From Burkholderiales bacterium (GTDB lineage: Bacteria; Pseudomonadota; Gammaproteobacteria; Burkholderiales; Burkholderiaceae), in NCBI GenBank assembly GCA_947371645.1, contig CANBQJ010000005.1, forward strand, positions 1-45,521: a DNA stretch of 45,521 nt, given 5' to 3'. The translations under genes and the position numbers were made by a program. This document shows positions 7,150 through 45,521 of the stretch, one piece after another. The number at the start of each line of letters is the position of its first letter. Position 1 is the first letter of the stretch. The notes beneath the pieces are model-generated. The model was not told where the DNA came from. It ran no database searches and saw only the letters and a program-made list of their open reading frames with translations.

Positions 7150-7797
7150 TCAGGAGTTCTCGAGGATCACGCCCTCGATGAGCTTGGCCACGTCTTCGCA
7201 CTTGTCGGTGACGGTTTCCAGCAGCTCGTAGATCGCCTTGAGCTTGATGACCTCGCGCACATCGGGCTCTTCGCGGAAGAGCTTGCTCATGGCGGCGCGC
7301 ATCACGCGGTCGGCATCGGACTCCAGCTGGTCGATTTCTTCGCAGGTCTTGAGCGCGGCGGCGGCCGTGGTGGCATCGCCGATGTCGTGCAGCAGGGCCA
7401 CGGCGTCTTTGAGGCGCTCGGCGCATTTCACGCACAGCTCGGTCAGGCGCTCGATCTCGGGCGTCATGCGGCGCACGTCATACAGTGCCATGGTCTCGGC
7501 GGCGTCCTGCATCAGGTCGGCCACGTCGTCCATCGTGTTGATCAGCGAGAAGATCTGCTCGCGGTCCAGCGGCGTGATGAAGGTGGTGTGCAGCAGGCGG
7601 TTGACTTCGCGCGTGACGGTGTCGGCGGCGCTCTCAGCCGCGTCCACGTCCTGGTTGTACTTTTCGCGCAGGATGGGGTCGTTGTAGTTGCTGACCAGGT
7701 CACGGAAGGCATGGGCCGCCGTGACGATGTGCACCGCATGCTGGTTGAACAGCTCAAAAAAATTGCCCTCGCGGGGCAGCAGCTTGCCGAAGATCAT
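7150..7797 (-). CDS. DUF47 family PhoU-like protein, Pit accessory
   Basis: 215 residues, all-helical, PhoU-like. The start at 7797 (MIFGKLLPREGNFFELFNQH) matches the usual N-terminus of the family, so an upstream in-frame alternative is rejected even though the Shine-Dalgarno sequence here is weak. Conserved DREQIFSLINTMDDVADLM and ETVTDKCEDVAKLIEGVILE carry the acidic metal-binding positions. Members adjacent to PiT permeases are thought to control the transporter (Pit accessory protein). It forms a two-gene operon with the permease at 6126-7136. Confidence 0.92.
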   Translation of the reverse strand: MIFGKLLPREGNFFELFNQHAVHIVTAAHAFRDLVSNYNDPILREKYNQDVDAAESAADTVTREVNRLLHTTFITPLDREQIFSLINTMDDVADLMQDAAETMALYDVRRMTPEIERLTELCVKCAERLKDAVALLHDIGDATTAAAALKTCEEIDQLESDADRVMRAAMSKLFREEPDVREVIKLKAIYELLETVTDKCEDVAKLIEGVILENS

Positions 7798-37273: not shown

Positions 37274-37681
37274 ATGCCTTGGTCACCAGTCACCTCATCC
37301 GGCGATGTCGTCGACAACAACGCCGCCATGCCCGGCCTCAGCGCAGAGTTGGTGGAAACGAGGTACGAGTCGCCCGCTGCGGGGCCGCATGTGACCCAGC
37401 GGATCACCCTGGGCTTTCGGCTCAAGTTCGCCAGCAGCAACGCCTTCAACGGCATCGCCGCCGGCGCGCAGCGGGACCTCCGCACCTTGCCCAGTGACGA
37501 GTTCCACCCCCTGGCACAGATCAGCGTCGACCCGCAGACCCGCGCTCCCGGCGCCCCGCATGGGTCAGTGGGTGTAGGCGCTGAAGCTCAAGCCCATGCG
37601 AACCCAGGTCCGGCGTTCGTCGTATTCCAGCAGGCCATCGCCATGGCCATTGAAAGCCGTGAGGGACAGCCGCACCTGTGA
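37274..37681 (+). CDS. Possible small gene overlapping the 3' end of pldA on the other strand
   Basis: 135 residues. Evidence for a real gene: GGGAG lies 6 bases before ATG 37274, and codons up to about 37560 have very high GC3 with A/T at second positions, as in real genes here. The peptide includes LSAELVETRYESPAAGPHVT and QRITLGFRLKFASSNAFNGI, which does not match a family I know. The last 117 bp are antisense to the end of pldA, so this part of the frame may be open only by chance. It might be a degraded gene tail or a genuine short orphan. No signal peptide. Confidence 0.42.
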   Translation: MPWSPVTSSGDVVDNNAAMPGLSAELVETRYESPAAGPHVTQRITLGFRLKFASSNAFNGIAAGAQRDLRTLPSDEFHPLAQISVDPQTRAPGAPHGSVGVGAEAQAHANPGPAFVVFQQAIAMAIESREGQPHL

Positions 37682-38512
37682 GCGACCATGGCCCAGCCAC
37701 TCGTCTGGATCCAGATAGAGCTTGACAGCGGCCTGGCCCTTGTTGAAAGGGTTGCCCTTGGTGCTGAGCTCGGCCAGGTCACCCCAACTCAGCGTGTTCC
37801 ACAGCAGGCCCCATTCGCTGCGGATGCCCGGGTTTTCGTTGGTGCCCGCCGGGATCCACAGCCGCGGCTGGTATCGCCAGGTGCCCCCCGGCCATGCCCA
37901 CTGGAACTTGGGCTCGACAAACACGGCGTAGTCAATCGACCTTGAGCGCATGTTGCCCGTGCCATTCGGGCCGGTGGACGTGTTGTCCTGGCCATTGCTG
38001 ATGTGCTCCACACCGGCTTCGAAGCCGCGCCAAAGGGGCAGCGCGTCGGGTGGGCCCTGAACCTGATGCAGCCAGACCAGGGCGGGGTTGTGGTTGATGT
38101 CCCTGAACGGTGCGGAATCCGCGTGGATGTCCCAGAACCCGGTCATGCGGTAAGTGAAATACAGGCCGTTGCCGGACCCGGGCGCCACCCAGAGGGGCGA
38201 CTTCACACCCATGCGGAACACCCAATCTGCCGGGCGTTGTGCGCCCCAGCTCTTCAGCCCGAGGTCAATGAAGTTGTCTTTGTAGGCACTGATGGGCGGT
38301 GTGGGCGTCATGGGGCTCACCCCAGGCGGCGCCTGCTCCCCTGGCGCTGGGGTGAGCTCGGGCGAAGTGGCCGACGTTGGGGCGCACCTGGCAAAAACGC
38401 ATTTCTGTTCTGCCGTGGCCTCAACAGGCTGTGCACACAGCACGGCCATCTTGAACGGCAGCAGCGCCAGTGCCATCGCGCGCAGCGCGTGTCCTTTCCG
38501 CATGCTCAACAT
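37565..38512 (-). CDS. pldA: Outer-membrane phospholipase A (OMPLA)
   Basis: 315 residues from ATG 38512 (AGGA 5-6 bases upstream; ATG 38503 also possible). A signal-like start, then a Pro/Thr-rich linker (about 45-75). The phospholipase A barrel follows: YKDNFIDLGLKSWGAQ, SPLWVAPGSGNGLYFTYRMT, GFEAGVEHISNGQDNTS with the catalytic His170 and Ser172, and a barrel terminus VRMGLSFSAYTH. The third triad residue of E. coli OMPLA is Asn in SRSWN; the aligned segment here is SRSID with Asp194. The enzyme hydrolyses phospholipids that reach the outer leaflet and needs Ca2+ and dimerisation. Divergent from a J-domain gene. Confidence 0.88.
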   Translation of the reverse strand: MLSMRKGHALRAMALALLPFKMAVLCAQPVEATAEQKCVFARCAPTSATSPELTPAPGEQAPPGVSPMTPTPPISAYKDNFIDLGLKSWGAQRPADWVFRMGVKSPLWVAPGSGNGLYFTYRMTGFWDIHADSAPFRDINHNPALVWLHQVQGPPDALPLWRGFEAGVEHISNGQDNTSTGPNGTGNMRSRSIDYAVFVEPKFQWAWPGGTWRYQPRLWIPAGTNENPGIRSEWGLLWNTLSWGDLAELSTKGNPFNKGQAAVKLYLDPDEWLGHGRSQVRLSLTAFNGHGDGLLEYDERRTWVRMGLSFSAYTH

Positions 38513-39728: not shown

Positions 39729-39834
39729 GCCTGCGCCAGCTTCGGCGATTCAAGTCCGCGCTCCGGCTTGTCGATATCGCTTCAGCCGCCGCAGTTTTCG
39801 CCGTGCGGTGTCTTGTCATTGCGGTGGGGCCACC

Positions 39835-40305
39835 ATGTCACAGCTGATCCACCTGATCTACGCCAGTGCGGCAAGCAGGCACCTGGACACGCCAGCGCTG
39901 GCCCGGTTGTTGGCCGGTGCACGCGGCAACAACGACCGCCTGGGCCTGACGGGCATGCTGCTGCATGCCGACGGCAGCTTCTTCCAGGTGCTGGAAGGCC
40001 CGGCCAGCGTCGTTCTGGCCTTGTACCAGCAGATCGAGTGCGACCCGCGCCACAACCAGGTCACCCGCATCATCAGCGAGCCCATCCCGCGGCGCTGCTT
40101 CAGCACCTGGAGCATGGGCTTCTCGGACCTGTCGCAAGCCGGATTGCAAGCACGGGTACCTGGCGTCAATGATTTCTTTGGCAAGGCCCAGTCCTTCAAC
40201 GACGTGAACCATGGCCGTGCCAAAAAGCTGCTGGCCGCCTTTGCGGGAGGGCGCTGGCGAAGCGATGGCCATGAAGCCGCGCCAGCGCAGGAAGCCGGCA
40301 CATGA
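39835..40305 (+). CDS. BLUF domain blue-light photoreceptor
   Basis: 156 residues from ATG 39835. The BLUF core shows all key residues: Tyr9 in LIHLIYASAA, Asn32/Asn33 in RGNNDRLGLTGML, Gln51 in GSFFQVLEGPASVV, and the Trp/Met pair (Trp92, Met94) in FSTWSMGFSDLS. FAD bound here shifts on blue light by rearranging the Tyr-Gln hydrogen bonds. A short C-terminal helix region follows instead of an output domain. The stop codon overlaps the start of the EAL gene by 4 bp (ATGA), so light sensing is probably passed to the EAL protein. Confidence 0.93.
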   Translation: MSQLIHLIYASAASRHLDTPALARLLAGARGNNDRLGLTGMLLHADGSFFQVLEGPASVVLALYQQIECDPRHNQVTRIISEPIPRRCFSTWSMGFSDLSQAGLQARVPGVNDFFGKAQSFNDVNHGRAKKLLAAFAGGRWRSDGHEAAPAQEAGT

Positions 40306-41021
40306 GCGCCACAGCCTTTCCACGTTTCACCTACGCTTACCAGCCCATCGTGGACGTGCTGACGCGCGAGGTCTTTTCTTGCGAAGCGCTCATCCGCGGC
40401 CCGGGCAATGAGTCCGCCTACAGCGTGTTGAGCGCCATCCCCGAAGAGGCCAGGTACCGCTTCGACCAGGTGAGCCGCATCGCGGCCATCGAGCTGGCGC
40501 AATCGCTGGGTTTGCGCACGCACCTCAACGTCAATGTGCTGCCGGGTTGCCTGTTCTCGTCCGATGTGTCCATCGACGCCACCCTGGACGCCGCCCGACG
40601 CTGCGGCCTGCCTCTGGACCGCCTCATCCTGGAAGTGACCGAAGGCGAAGCCATCACAGACCACGCCAGGTTTGCAGGGCTGCTCAACGCCTACCGGGGC
40701 CAGGGCCTGAAGGTGGCCATCGACGATTTCGGGGCGGGCGTCTCCGGCTTGAACCTGCTGGCCGACTTTCAGCCTGATCAGATCAAGATCGACATGGCCC
40801 TGGTGCGGGGCATCGAGCGCAACGGGCCCAGGCAGGCCATCGTGCGCGCCATCGTGCAGGTCTGCGTGGACCTCGGCATCGACGTCATCGCCGAAGGCGT
40901 TGAAACGCAGTCCGAATGCGACTGGTTTGCCAGGCAGGGCGTGCGCCTGTTCCAGGGCTATCTGTTCGCCAAGCCGGGCTTTCAGACCTTGCCCCAGGTG
41001 GACTTTCCCGAGGTGTGGTGA
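40302..41021 (+). CDS. Stand-alone EAL domain c-di-GMP phosphodiesterase
   Basis: 239 residues. A complete EAL domain with catalytic residues intact: YAYQPIVDVLTREVFSCEAL followed by IRGPG (EAL motif as CEALIRG), LNVNVLPG, LDRLILEVTEGEAI, GLKVAIDDFGAGVSGLNLL (DDFGAG), PDQIKIDMALVRGI, DVIAEGVETQSE and LFQGYLFAKPGF. It should cleave c-di-GMP to pGpG and lower biofilm signals. No GGDEF, no sensor domain in the same chain. Together with the coupled BLUF gene this is a split version of BlrP1/YcgF-type BLUF-EAL proteins; functional pairing is inferred from the overlap. Confidence 0.94.
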   Translation: MSATAFPRFTYAYQPIVDVLTREVFSCEALIRGPGNESAYSVLSAIPEEARYRFDQVSRIAAIELAQSLGLRTHLNVNVLPGCLFSSDVSIDATLDAARRCGLPLDRLILEVTEGEAITDHARFAGLLNAYRGQGLKVAIDDFGAGVSGLNLLADFQPDQIKIDMALVRGIERNGPRQAIVRAIVQVCVDLGIDVIAEGVETQSECDWFARQGVRLFQGYLFAKPGFQTLPQVDFPEVW

Positions 41022-41110: not shown

Positions 41111-41617
41111 ATGGTCAAAGCCATTCTTTTGCTCATTTTCTTTGGCATCGCGGGCTGGTGGTTCGCCATCGGTGGGCGGCAACTCAACGAGGCCCAGGTC
41201 CGCGAGTTCTACCGCACGCAAGAAGCCGCCACCTTGTCCCGCCAGCCCGACGCCTTGTGCGACCTGCTGGACGACCGCTTCCAGACGGCCGGCCGCACCG
41301 TGATGGCCGGCGAGGGCAGCAGTTCGGTCATGGACAAGCGGCAGTCCTGCGACGGCCTGCGTGAACTGTTCGCCAGCTGGGAAGCCCTGGGCGAGAAGAT
41401 GGGCGGCATGCTGCAGCTGGATTCGCACTACACCGTGCACCGCATCACCATCGCCCCGGATGGCCACAGCGCCACGGTGGACGTGAGCACCCAGCTGGAC
41501 GTGGGCGGCAGCATCATGAGCCTGCGCAGTCACACGACCGACACGCTGGTGCGGCGCAACGGGCGGGTGAGCTTGTTGCGCAGCGATGGGGAAGGCGCGG
41601 TGGGGGTGGGGGGCTGA
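41111..41617 (+). CDS. Hypothetical single-pass membrane or secreted protein, possibly NTF2-like
   Basis: 168 residues from ATG 41111. N-terminal hydrophobic segment AILLLIFFGIAGWWFAIGG (anchor or uncleaved signal), then a mixed alpha/beta domain: EAQVREFYRTQEAATLSRQP, LCDLLDDRFQTAGRTVM, LDSHYTVHRITIAPDGHSAT and IMSLRSHTTDTLVRRNGRVS. The helix-helix-strand order with paired cysteines (Cys in ALCDLL and KRQSCDGL) recalls SnoaL/DUF4440-type folds, but I cannot assign it. The tail is glycine/valine-rich. A 9-bp inverted repeat spans the stop codon. Confidence 0.62.
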   Translation: MVKAILLLIFFGIAGWWFAIGGRQLNEAQVREFYRTQEAATLSRQPDALCDLLDDRFQTAGRTVMAGEGSSSVMDKRQSCDGLRELFASWEALGEKMGGMLQLDSHYTVHRITIAPDGHSATVDVSTQLDVGGSIMSLRSHTTDTLVRRNGRVSLLRSDGEGAVGVGG

Positions 41618-41627
41618 GCCCACCGCG
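41596..41627. terminator. Stem-loop spanning the stop codon of the gene at 41111-41617
   Basis: CGCGGTGGG (41596-41604) and CCCACCGCG (41619-41627) form a perfect 9-bp GC stem with a 14-base loop that contains the TGA stop. It may separate this gene from the riboswitch-controlled operon behind it. It has no T-tract. Confidence 0.4.
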
Positions 41628-41699
41628 GCGCCTGCAACCCCGTTGCACCAGCTTGAAGCACGGGCCTCAGGCACAGTCTTTGCGTCAAATCAAACCGAC

Positions 41700-41761
41700 G
41701 GAGTAGAAGCGTTCAGTCTGGTGCATGCGGCCCTCGCATGGCACCAACAGGAAATTGCTCC
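41700..41761 (+). promoter_or_regulatory. NMT1-motif (xanthine-I) riboswitch
   Basis: The conserved halves GGAGTAGAAGCGTTCAG (41700-41716) and AGGAAATTGCTCC (41749-41761) match the core I remember for the NMT1 motif: a short P1 (GGAG with CTCC), the GTAGAAGCGTTCAG internal loop, and GGAAATTGC on the other side. Between them is a stem TGGTGCATGCG / CGCATGGCACCA with one bulged base and loop GCCCT. The class binds xanthine and uric acid and controls purine oxidation and transport genes, mainly in Betaproteobacteria. It is 114 bp upstream of an NMT1-type binding-protein gene, the namesake context. Confidence 0.87.
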
Positions 41762-41878
41762 CGACGCCGGCTGCCACGCGCAGGCCGTTTGTCGGGACGC
41801 ACGGGCAGACGCCCGGTGAACGACAGACCTTGCCCCAGCAGCCGATCGACCGGACCCTTTCGGCATGAGGCTCGCATG
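41733..41878 (+). repeat. 8-bp direct repeat linking the riboswitch stem and the start codon
   Basis: CTCGCATG occurs in the 3' arm side of the riboswitch stem (41733-41740) and again over the start codon of the binding-protein gene (41871-41878). The 5' arm CATGCG (41724-41729) can therefore pair with either. A nested stem, GTTTGTCG with CGACAGAC, lies between them. Possible expression platform; speculative. Confidence 0.35.
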
Positions 41879-42871
41879 TTCTCTACGCTTCGCTCACGAC
41901 TCACCCTCCGCACCGGCCTGACCCTGGCCACGCTGCTCACCGCCGCGCTGCCCAGCGCCCACGCGCAAGACAAGCTCACCTTCCTCACCAGCTGGTACGC
42001 CCAGGCCGAACACGGCGGCTTCTACCAGGCGCTGGCCACCGGCTTGTACAAGCAAGCCGGGCTGGACGTCACCATCAAGATGGGCGGGCCGCAGGTCAAC
42101 GGCATGCAGCTGCTCACCGCTGGCCAGGCCGACTTCATCATCGGCTACGACTTCCAGGTGCTCAGCGGCGTAGAGCGCGGTCTGCCCGTGGTCACCGTGG
42201 CGGCCAGCTTCCAGAAAGACCTCCAAGGCATGCTCACGCATGGCGACCTCCAGTCCCTGGCCGACGTGAAGACCAAGACCATCCTGGTGGCGGGCAACAA
42301 CCGCACCAGCTGGTGGCCCTGGCTCAAGTCCAAGTACGACCTGAAGGAGGAGCAAAGCCGCCCCTACACCTTCAACCTGCAGCCCTTCTTTGCCGATGCC
42401 AACGTGGTGCAGCAGGCCTACCCGTCCTCGGAGCCCTTCCAGGCCATGAAGAAGGGCATCCCCTGCAAGTTTTTCTTGTTCGCCGACGAAGGCTACCCGC
42501 CCTATGGCACCAGCGTGGTCACCACGCAGGCGCTGCTCAAGGGCAGGCCCGATGTGGTCAAGCGCTTCGTGGAGGCCTCGATGAAAGGCTGGGTCAGTTA
42601 CCTCAAAGACCCGGCGGCAGGCAACGCGCTCATCAAGAAGGACAACCCCGCGATGACGGACGAGCAAATCGCCTTTGGTGTGGCGCAGATGAAGGCCCTG
42701 AAGGTGCTGGATGGCGGTGACGCGGCCACGCAAGGCGTGGGCACCATGAGCGACGCGCGCTGGAAGGCCACGCGCGACTACATGGTCAAGGAAGCGCTGC
42801 TCAAGGCCGACACACCCTGGCAGAAGGCCTACGCGCTGGACGTGGTCAGGCAGCTCAAGGTCATGCCTTGA
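41876..42871 (+). CDS. ABC transporter substrate-binding protein, NMT1/THI5-like (purine or related)
   Basis: 331 residues from ATG 41876, with GAGG 5 bases upstream. Signal peptide LTLATLLTAALPSAHA. Periplasmic-binding fold of the NMT1/THI5 type: LTFLTSWYAQAEHGGFYQAL, GLYKQAGLDVTIKMGGPQVN, ADFIIGYDFQVLSG, LQSLADVKTKTILVAG and YPSSEPFQAMKKGIP, ending in the helix KAYALDVVRQLKVM. Family members bind pyrimidine precursors, thiamine precursors or other small heterocycles. The riboswitch just upstream and the deaminase downstream point to xanthine, urate or another oxopurine as the ligand. First gene of a four-gene operon. Confidence 0.92.
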   Translation: MFSTLRSRLTLRTGLTLATLLTAALPSAHAQDKLTFLTSWYAQAEHGGFYQALATGLYKQAGLDVTIKMGGPQVNGMQLLTAGQADFIIGYDFQVLSGVERGLPVVTVAASFQKDLQGMLTHGDLQSLADVKTKTILVAGNNRTSWWPWLKSKYDLKEEQSRPYTFNLQPFFADANVVQQAYPSSEPFQAMKKGIPCKFFLFADEGYPPYGTSVVTTQALLKGRPDVVKRFVEASMKGWVSYLKDPAAGNALIKKDNPAMTDEQIAFGVAQMKALKVLDGGDAATQGVGTMSDARWKATRDYMVKEALLKADTPWQKAYALDVVRQLKVMP

Positions 42872-42916
42872 GCAGACGCTGAGCACCGCACCCGCAGCCC
42901 CAAAAAGGAGCGCCCC

Positions 42917-43794
<878 letters not shown>

Positions 43795-43798
<4 letters not shown>

Positions 43799-44640
43799 GC
43801 GTCGCCCTGCCCAACGCCGGTGCCCCGCGCACCACAGGCACCTTGCCCTGGGTGCAGTCCGAGCGCTTCCTGCGCGTGGCCGTGCCCGCACTCGTGGGCC
43901 TGATGCTGCTGTTGCTGTGGGAAGGCTGCGTGCGCGGCTTCCATGTGCCCGAGTACCTGGTGCCCGGCCCTTGGCGCGTGGCCCAGGCCCTGCATGAAGA
44001 CTTCGGGCTCTTGATGGGTTCGCTGTGGGTCACGCTGAGCATCACCGCGGGCGCCTTCGCGGTGGCCGCGCTGGTGGGCACCCTGATCGCCGTGGCCTTC
44101 GTGCAAAGCCGCTGGGTGGAGCTCAGCCTCTTCCCCTATGCGGTGCTGCTGCAGGTCACGCCCATTGCGGCCATCGCCCCCCTCATCATCATCTGGGTGA
44201 AGGCGCCCACGGCGGCGCTCATCGTGTGCGCCACGCTCATTGCGCTGTTTCCCATCATCGCCAACACCACCATGGGGCTGCGCAGCGTGTCGCCGGGGCT
44301 GGCGGCGTTCTTTCGCATGCAGGGCGGCTCGCGCTGGCAAACGCTGTGGCGGCTGCAGGTGCCCAGCGCCTTGCCCTACTGGTTTGCGGGCCTGCGCATC
44401 TCCAGCGGCCTGTCCCTGGTGGGCGCCGTGGTGGCCGAGTTCGTGGCCGGCACGGGTGGGCAGGGCGCCGGGCTGGCCTACCAGATCCTGCAGTCGGGCT
44501 ACCAGCTCAACATCCCGCGCCTGTTTGCGGCCTTGACGCTGATCAGCGTGACCGGTGTGCTGCTGTTCTGGGGCATGCTGGGCTTGAGCCAGAGGGCCTT
44601 GGGCAGCTGGCACGACAGCGCCCAGCGCGCTGAACAGTGA
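43795..44640 (+). CDS. ABC transporter permease (TauC/SsuC type)
   Basis: 281 residues; ATG 43795 overlaps the ATPase stop (ATGA) and is preceded by GAGG. Around six transmembrane helices: AVPALVGLMLLLLWEGCV, LWVTLSITAGAFAVAALVGT, YAVLLQVTPIAAIAPLIIIW, LIVCATLIALFPIIANTTMG and others. The EAA-loop coupling segment is in LQVPSALPYWFAGLRISSGL. Forms the channel of the importer with the ATPase and the binding protein. N-terminal extension of about 25 residues before the first helix, otherwise normal length. Confidence 0.93.
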
Positions 44641-44694
44641 CGCTGGCAGACGACCCGCTCGGCACCCCCACCAGTTCCCCACCGAGGACGCACC

Positions 44695-45521
44695 ATGACC
44701 GCCGCTGACCGCAGTTTCCTCATCGCCGGTGCCGCGGGCATGCTCACCGGTGCCGCCGGCGACGCCGCCTGGACCGACGCCACCGACGTGCGCGTGGTGG
44801 ACGGCGTGATCGCCGCCATTGGCCACCTGCAGCCCCTGCCCGGCGAGCCCGTGGTGAACGCGCAAGACGCCGTGCTCTACCCCGGCTGGGTCAACACCCA
44901 CCACCACCTCTTCCAGACCGTGCTCAAGAACGTGAGCGCGGGCCAGGGCGTGCCCCTGGTGCCCTGGCTGGAGGCCGTGCCCTATGCCTACGGCCCCTTC
45001 ATCGACCGTGAGGCGCTCACCGTGGCGGCCACCTTGGGGCTGGTCGAGCTGCTGCTCAGCGGCTGCACCACCGTGGCCGACCACCACTACCTCTTCGGCC
45101 CCGGGCAAGACCATGACCCGGCCCAGGTGATCTTCGATGCGGCCGGCCAACTCGGCCTGCGCTGTGTGCTGCTGCGCGGCGGCGCCACCCAGGCCCGCGC
45201 CTTCACCGGCGGCCCCCAGCCCATGCCCAGCGAGACCCTGGAGGGCATGTTGGCCAGCGTGCAAGCCGCCGCCACCCGCTACCACCAGCCGGGTGGCGAC
45301 GCCCTCCGCAAGGTGGTGATGGCGCCCACCACCCCGTTTTACTCCACGACTCCCCAAGAGCTGCGCGAGATCGCCCGCGCGGCCCGCGCCATGGGCATCG
45401 GCCTGCACTCGCACTTGTCCGAGACCGCCGACTACGTGCACTTCGCCGCCCGGCAATGGGGCATGCGCCCCGTGCACTGGTGCGCCGAACAGGAGTGGAT
45501 CGGCCCCGACGTGTCCTACGC
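44695..45521 (+). CDS. Amidohydrolase, 8-oxoguanine / guanine deaminase-like (cut by the right edge)
   Basis: 275 residues visible; the C-terminal third is outside the window. ATG 44695 with GAGGA 6-7 bases upstream. ATZ/TRZ-type amidohydrolase: VRVVDGVIAAIGHLQPLP, the metal-binding YPGWVNTHHHLFQTVLKNVS (HxH), LLSGCTTVADHHYLF, and the third His in GIGLHSHLSETADYV. The HTHHHLFQ and ADHHYLF forms are those of 8-oxoguanine deaminases; related enzymes deaminate guanine or s-triazines. Being fourth in an operon under a xanthine riboswitch with a purine-type importer, it probably turns imported or damaged guanine-like bases into xanthine or urate. Confidence 0.88.
   Translation, partial: MTAADRSFLIAGAAGMLTGAAGDAAWTDATDVRVVDGVIAAIGHLQPLPGEPVVNAQDAVLYPGWVNTHHHLFQTVLKNVSAGQGVPLVPWLEAVPYAYGPFIDREALTVAATLGLVELLLSGCTTVADHHYLFGPGQDHDPAQVIFDAAGQLGLRCVLLRGGATQARAFTGGPQPMPSETLEGMLASVQAAATRYHQPGGDALRKVVMAPTTPFYSTTPQELREIARAARAMGIGLHSHLSETADYVHFAARQWGMRPVHWCAEQEWIGPDVSY

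Follow-up and report, generated by a model that had tools for sequence, protein, structure and literature searches.

A xanthine (NMT1) riboswitch ahead of a transporter and a PRK12393-type deaminase in a Burkholderiales contig, with a pteridine hypothesis for its operon

The stretch of DNA analysed here (the window) comprises 45,521 nucleotides of contig CANBQJ010000005.1, from a bacterium of the Burkholderiales (GenBank assembly GCA_947371645.1). Near its end it carries a xanthine (NMT1) riboswitch aptamer, followed on the same strand by genes for an NMT1/THI5-type periplasmic binding protein, the ATPase and permease of an ATP-binding cassette (ABC) transporter, and an amidohydrolase (Table 1). 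The first-pass annotation, made from the sequence alone, had described this gene set as it is found, without mention of the truncation of the amidohydrolase at the window end. The binding protein and ATPase genes are separated by 45 bases, those of the ATPase and permease overlap by 4 bases, and 54 bases lie between the permease and the amidohydrolase; the four genes are probably expressed as one transcript.

Table 1. Features of the riboswitch operon, in window coordinates; aa, amino acids; SD, Shine-Dalgarno
Feature	Position	Strand	Basis
Xanthine (NMT1) riboswitch aptamer, RF03054	41696..41765	+	Covariance model, conserved motifs
Leader, 110 bases, SD-like GAGG at 41867-41870	41766..41875	+	Read from sequence
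NMT1/THI5-type periplasmic binding protein, 331 aa	41876..42871	+	PF09084, 107.1 bits (gathering 20.5)
ABC transporter ATPase, 293 aa	42917..43798	+	PF00005, 116.7 bits
ABC transporter permease, 281 aa	43795..44640	+	PF00528, 83.6 bits
PRK12393-type amidohydrolase (isoxanthopterin-deaminase branch), cut by window end	44695..45521	+	PRK12393 score, 2PAJ similarity

A cmscan search of the whole window matches the Rfam model RF03054 over its full length (1-56 of 56) at 46.5 bits (E 2.7e-7), above the gathering score of 36, which bears out the earlier assignment to the NMT1/xanthine class. RF03054 is the sole RNA family reaching its gathering score in the window, and a permissive scan of 41500-45521 returned no second RNA family match at E values up to 1. 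Both conserved halves of the motif can be read where the first-pass annotation had placed them, GTAGAAGCG from 41703 and GGAAATTGCTCC at 41750-41761, and the CTCC at 41758-41761 can pair with GGAG at 41700-41703 to form P1. The conserved junction and pocket bases are kept (GTAGAAGCG and GGAAATTGC), and when the window motifs are aligned to the numbering of the crystal structure they hold the bases making the G10, U40, A6, A9, C11, G35, A39 and U41 contacts (PMC8266621). The pattern GTA[GT]AAGC plus GGNNATTGC is retained in the window and in all 82 valid hits from 70 related loci, a count that leaves out the places in L035 and L041, sited on other contigs. These places were taken from the covariance model, as a regular-expression motif scan proved too narrow, recovering the window and four loci only. 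Apart from G or T at one position, pocket variants that might change the ligand occur in none of the 82 hits, although strongly variant pockets would escape hits derived from the family model. None of 14 control genomes was matched by RF03054. The window RNA is thus a genuine, ordinary xanthine riboswitch in a kind of gene context already published.

The amidohydrolase departs from its earlier description. With 275 aa visible, as against 473 aa in the ortholog at the related locus L002 (L002:10688-12109), this incomplete protein scores 354.5 bits with PRK12393 (cut-off 543) versus 183 with PRK08203 (cut-off 532). The full-length L002 ortholog reaches 631 bits with PRK12393, above the cut-off, and 390 with PRK08203, below the cut-off; on these scores membership of the 8-oxoguanine deaminase family is rejected. 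The two solved reference enzymes divide in the same manner, 2PAJ scoring 750 bits with PRK12393 and 379 with PRK08203, and 3HPA 396 and 770, respectively. In a search against solved structures 2PAJ is the closest to the window protein (269 bits, with 3HPA at 119), and the identities are 47.6% to 2PAJ over 273 aligned residues and 29.7% to 3HPA. At the positions of 2PAJ Q81, Y139, T172 and T220-T221 the window has Gln, Tyr, Thr and Thr-Thr; Thr stands at the T172 position in all 67 deaminases compared and at T220/T221 in 65 of them, while 3HPA and 7WW2 carry Ser, Cys and Ser at T172, T220 and T221. Gln, Tyr and two Thr are presumably the residue types of the isoxanthopterin deaminase substrate site, their positions having been assigned in this analysis; a study of that enzyme (Hall 2010) is said to have described these residue types. 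Hence, the 8-oxoguanine/guanine-deaminase-like substrate call of the first-pass annotation gives way to a place beside PRK12393 and 2PAJ.

We take 2PAJ to be an assayed isoxanthopterin deaminase, and its Protein Data Bank title names an amidohydrolase obtained from a sample of the Sargasso Sea. A review attributes the deamination of isoxanthopterin and pterin-6-carboxylate to amidohydrolases of that origin (PMC5270733). A direct bridge to this enzyme is furnished by Paraburkholderia fungorum LMG 16225 (L029), in which a riboswitch at 7607-7673 (46.0 bits) heads genes for a binding protein, a Rieske protein, an ATPase, a permease and a deaminase, the last being 99.4% identical to 2PAJ. If the assay presumed for 2PAJ is correctly attributed, an enzyme from a xanthine-riboswitch operon has already been demonstrated to act on pterins. 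The available text of PMC7373994 does not state this link, the value of which lies in joining two literatures: a xanthine-riboswitch operon contains a near-identical counterpart of a solved PRK12393 enzyme that is presumably an isoxanthopterin deaminase.

The arrangement recurs among relatives. A protein search with the window binding protein confirmed at least 571 relatives, of which the best 80 loci were kept and all counted; picked by binding-protein similarity, they are not a random sample. In 68 of the 80, RF03054 lies no more than 1.6 kb upstream of the binding-protein gene and on its strand (over cut-off in 64 of these 68), possibly a low count given that stricter search filters lose weak matches; the places in L035 and L041 do not enter the 68. 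A PRK12393-like gene follows within 7 kb downstream in 66/80, and 61/80 combine the upstream riboswitch with the downstream deaminase. At the level of whole genomes, RF03054 was matched in 30/30 and 44/50 genomes of two sets of relatives (over cut-off in 27 and 40). Among 150 genomes across the order of genome G002, it was matched in seven (five over cut-off), PRK12393 exceeded its cut-off in seven, and both were found in four (hypergeometric p 5.8e-5, or 7.1e-4 once the centre genome, already known to hold both, is left out; kinship not corrected). Only in G002 and G199, among these four, do the two lie on one contig, and the riboswitch class therefore also serves other operons. At two further places (L088:4916-6301 and L086:5288-6700) a PRK12393 deaminase is found near transporter genes of the same type with no RF03054 match at that place; the pairing of transporter with deaminase can persist where the riboswitch is missing.

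With regard to the transporter, the first-pass annotation had looked beyond the usual nitrate/taurine/HMP labels of its family, and for the sulfonate-type label this is borne out. The sulfonate (SsuA) label was tried for the binding protein and rejected, as TIGR01728 yields 21.6 bits where its cut-off is 163.5. The folds closest to this protein belong to proteins that bind thiamin or pyrimidines, with 4nmy and 3ix1 the nearest solved. The ATPase falls below the cut-off of every NCBIfam family among the 25 listed of 184 matched.

As to how the RNA might act on the operon, a consensus scan of 41560-42000 found neither an intrinsic-terminator-like nor a sigma-70-like site, a result still compatible with a promoter of another type. 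In the class at large terminators are rare, sequestration of the ribosome-binding site is common, and the switch is of the OFF type (PMC7373994). Single-sequence folds of five leaders were mutually discordant, and a consensus fold of six leaders gave a weak helix covering the SD sequence with a covariation term of only -0.16 kcal/mol. These predicted folds are not strong enough to demonstrate SD sequestration in the window.

The known chemistry of the class bears on what the operon might sense. Xanthine is bound with a dissociation constant of about 3.7 uM and urate with about 25 uM, and the discoverers left the natural ligand open (PMC7373994). According to the crystal structure, the RNA recognises xanthine by its N3H-C2=O-N1H edge and its O6; the 2-oxo pyrimidine portion is clamped by G10 and U40, and C8 alone faces the solvent (PMC8266621). 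Since a 2-amino ring, as in guanine or isoxanthopterin, lacks this edge and deamination creates it, the deaminase would make ligands of the riboswitch type from substrates with either an imidazole or a pyrazine as the second ring. This is in line with the earlier suggestion that the deaminase product is a riboswitch-type ligand, which the 2-amino to 2-oxo conversion would supply.

On these grounds we favour, with about even confidence, a scheme in which an oxidised pterin is imported and deaminated and the feedback is exerted by xanthine or a xanthine-like pteridinedione. The reading draws on the deaminase family, linkage, gene order and aptamer motifs observed here, and on class behaviour, xanthine and urate binding and OFF switching being taken from papers on other members. 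The compound imported by the transporter would be a bicyclic heterocycle that includes a 2-amino-4-oxo pyrimidine, an oxidised pterin such as isoxanthopterin or pterin-6-carboxylate being the likeliest, and the deaminase would exchange the 2-amino group for oxygen. Whether 7-oxylumazine (also known as isoxantholumazine or violapterin) or lumazine-6-carboxylate, the product would present the N3H-C2=O-N1H edge of xanthine. Upon accumulation of xanthine, urate or the deaminated product, the RNA would fold around its ligand and translation of the operon would be lowered. In this scheme we infer the substrate of the transporter, the activity of the enzyme on pterins, the binding of a pteridinedione by the RNA and translational control through the 110-base leader. 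A precedent for a xanthine pocket accepting pteridines, albeit that of a protein, is provided by xanthine oxidase, which converts lumazine, the pteridine analogue of xanthine, to violapterin (PMC9966888). Weighing against the scheme, binding to the RNA is lost when N7 or N9 carries a methyl group (PMC7373994), and therefore the larger pteridine ring may not fit.

The published purine interpretation, in which a guanine-type or 8-oxopurine base is imported, deaminated to xanthine or urate, and the operon turned off, is a serious rival to which we grant an appreciable though less than even probability. Against it, the family split groups the deaminase with 2PAJ, and the window has Thr-Thr where 3HPA has Cys-Ser. 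A different proposal, and the main ligand prediction of the first-pass annotation, is that xanthine or urate is itself the imported compound, with the riboswitch exerting end-product control of uptake and the deaminase being accessory. Xanthine and urate are indeed the ligands of the class (PMC7373994), and seven of the 68 riboswitch loci have no deaminase downstream. However, in two of the seven, L008 and L010, no more than 1978 and 406 bases are available beyond the match to the binding protein, the deaminase is downstream in 66/80 loci, and a ready-made oxopurine needs no deaminase. Because the transporter is tied to a deaminase, it more likely imports an amino precursor, and direct xanthine or urate import, which is not the best reading, appears improbable. 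That the RNA match is a chance resemblance and no functional riboswitch lies there has no supporting point and is dismissed as having next to no probability, because of the score, the unmatched controls, and the recurring place and conserved motifs in relatives.

Returning to oxidised pterin import, a more far-reaching and rather doubtful extension is that part of the class is a natural sensor of pteridinediones, with the Burkholderiales PRK12393 operons using 7-oxylumazine or lumazine-6-carboxylate as ligand and their transporter serving as a pterin importer. We know of no earlier riboswitch for pterin breakdown products, and a pteridinedione sensor would be the first. Such sensing, if true, would help to explain the absence of genes for the degradation of oxidised purines from the published gene contexts (PMC7373994). 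The candidate ligands for testing are 7-oxylumazine, lumazine and lumazine-6-carboxylate, none of which is mentioned in the available text of the same paper. Its authors did purchase isoxanthopterin; beyond this, no statement joining the xanthine riboswitch with pterins or lumazines was found in the literature searched, supplements not covered. The link between 2PAJ and a xanthine-riboswitch operon additionally allows a substrate to be predicted for transporters whose family labels are misleading. The finding is less new than the first-pass annotation suggested, as these gene types, PRK12393 amidohydrolases included, already appear in Yu and Breaker 2020 (PMC7373994). The riboswitch itself is known, and what is gained is an improved family assignment of the deaminase, together with a directly testable pteridine hypothesis.

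Several relatives carry a second riboswitch 3' of the deaminase, at L001:12117-12186, L002:12129-12198, L003:12264-12333, L004:12234-12303 and L009:5339-5391 (44.3, 37.6, 32.6, 34.5 and 46.0 bits, three of the five over cut-off), with a flavodoxin-type gene lying between deaminase and riboswitch in L009. In each, the next gene begins 22-34 bases past this riboswitch, and its product is related to the Rieske oxygenase of L002 (70-96% identical in the other four loci). The first four loci are the closest relatives of the window, which, by analogy, probably has the same riboswitch and Rieske gene past its end. The solved proteins nearest to the Rieske oxygenase of L021 are SxtDIOX and the methylxanthine demethylases NdmA/NdmB. 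Later riboswitch matches in L032 and L069 (28.8 and 33.1 bits) fall just after the binding-protein gene and not after the deaminase. Divergent xanthine riboswitch pairs, with a gene of a 2-oxoglutarate-Fe(II) dioxygenase cluster on the other side, are present in L026, L031, L033, L043, L046, L048 and L077. A creatininase-family hydrolase cluster, which might act further down the same pathway, is found near the binding-protein/oxygenase set in L032, L040, L055, L059 and L079. Just upstream of the aptamer, the window encodes a BLUF blue-light sensor (39808-40305, +) whose gene overlaps by 4 bases that of an EAL-domain protein of the cyclic di-GMP phosphodiesterase type (40302-41021, +), possibly a split light-sensor/effector pair; a phospholipase A1 family gene (PF02253) lies at 37565-38512 on the minus strand.

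Placed beside known systems, the window enzyme, as far as its incomplete gene extends, stands nearest to 2PAJ of PRK12393. With the 8-oxoguanine deaminase 3HPA of PRK08203 it has in common the superfamily, the NTHHH metal motif and the Gln and Tyr, and it differs in having Thr-Thr and Thr in place of Cys-Ser and Ser, its L002 ortholog lying under the PRK08203 cut-off. For the pterin deaminase of Variovorax sp. F1, orthology to Arad3529 is reported (PMC9513972, the available text of which has no mention of isoxanthopterin). In sequence, the binding protein is 21% and 19% identical to the thiamin- and formylaminopyrimidine-binding proteins 4nmy and 3ix1. Its 110-base leader up to the start codon contrasts with the published reporter, which was picked for a short distance to the ribosome-binding site (PMC7373994). 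In its aptamer motifs the window shows no difference from the RF03054 class as described by Yu and Breaker 2020 (PMC7373994) and, in structure, by Xu et al. 2021 (PMC8266621), and it resembles that class both in its covariance score and in the downstream NMT1/THI5 and PRK12393 genes, as listed in PMC7373994.
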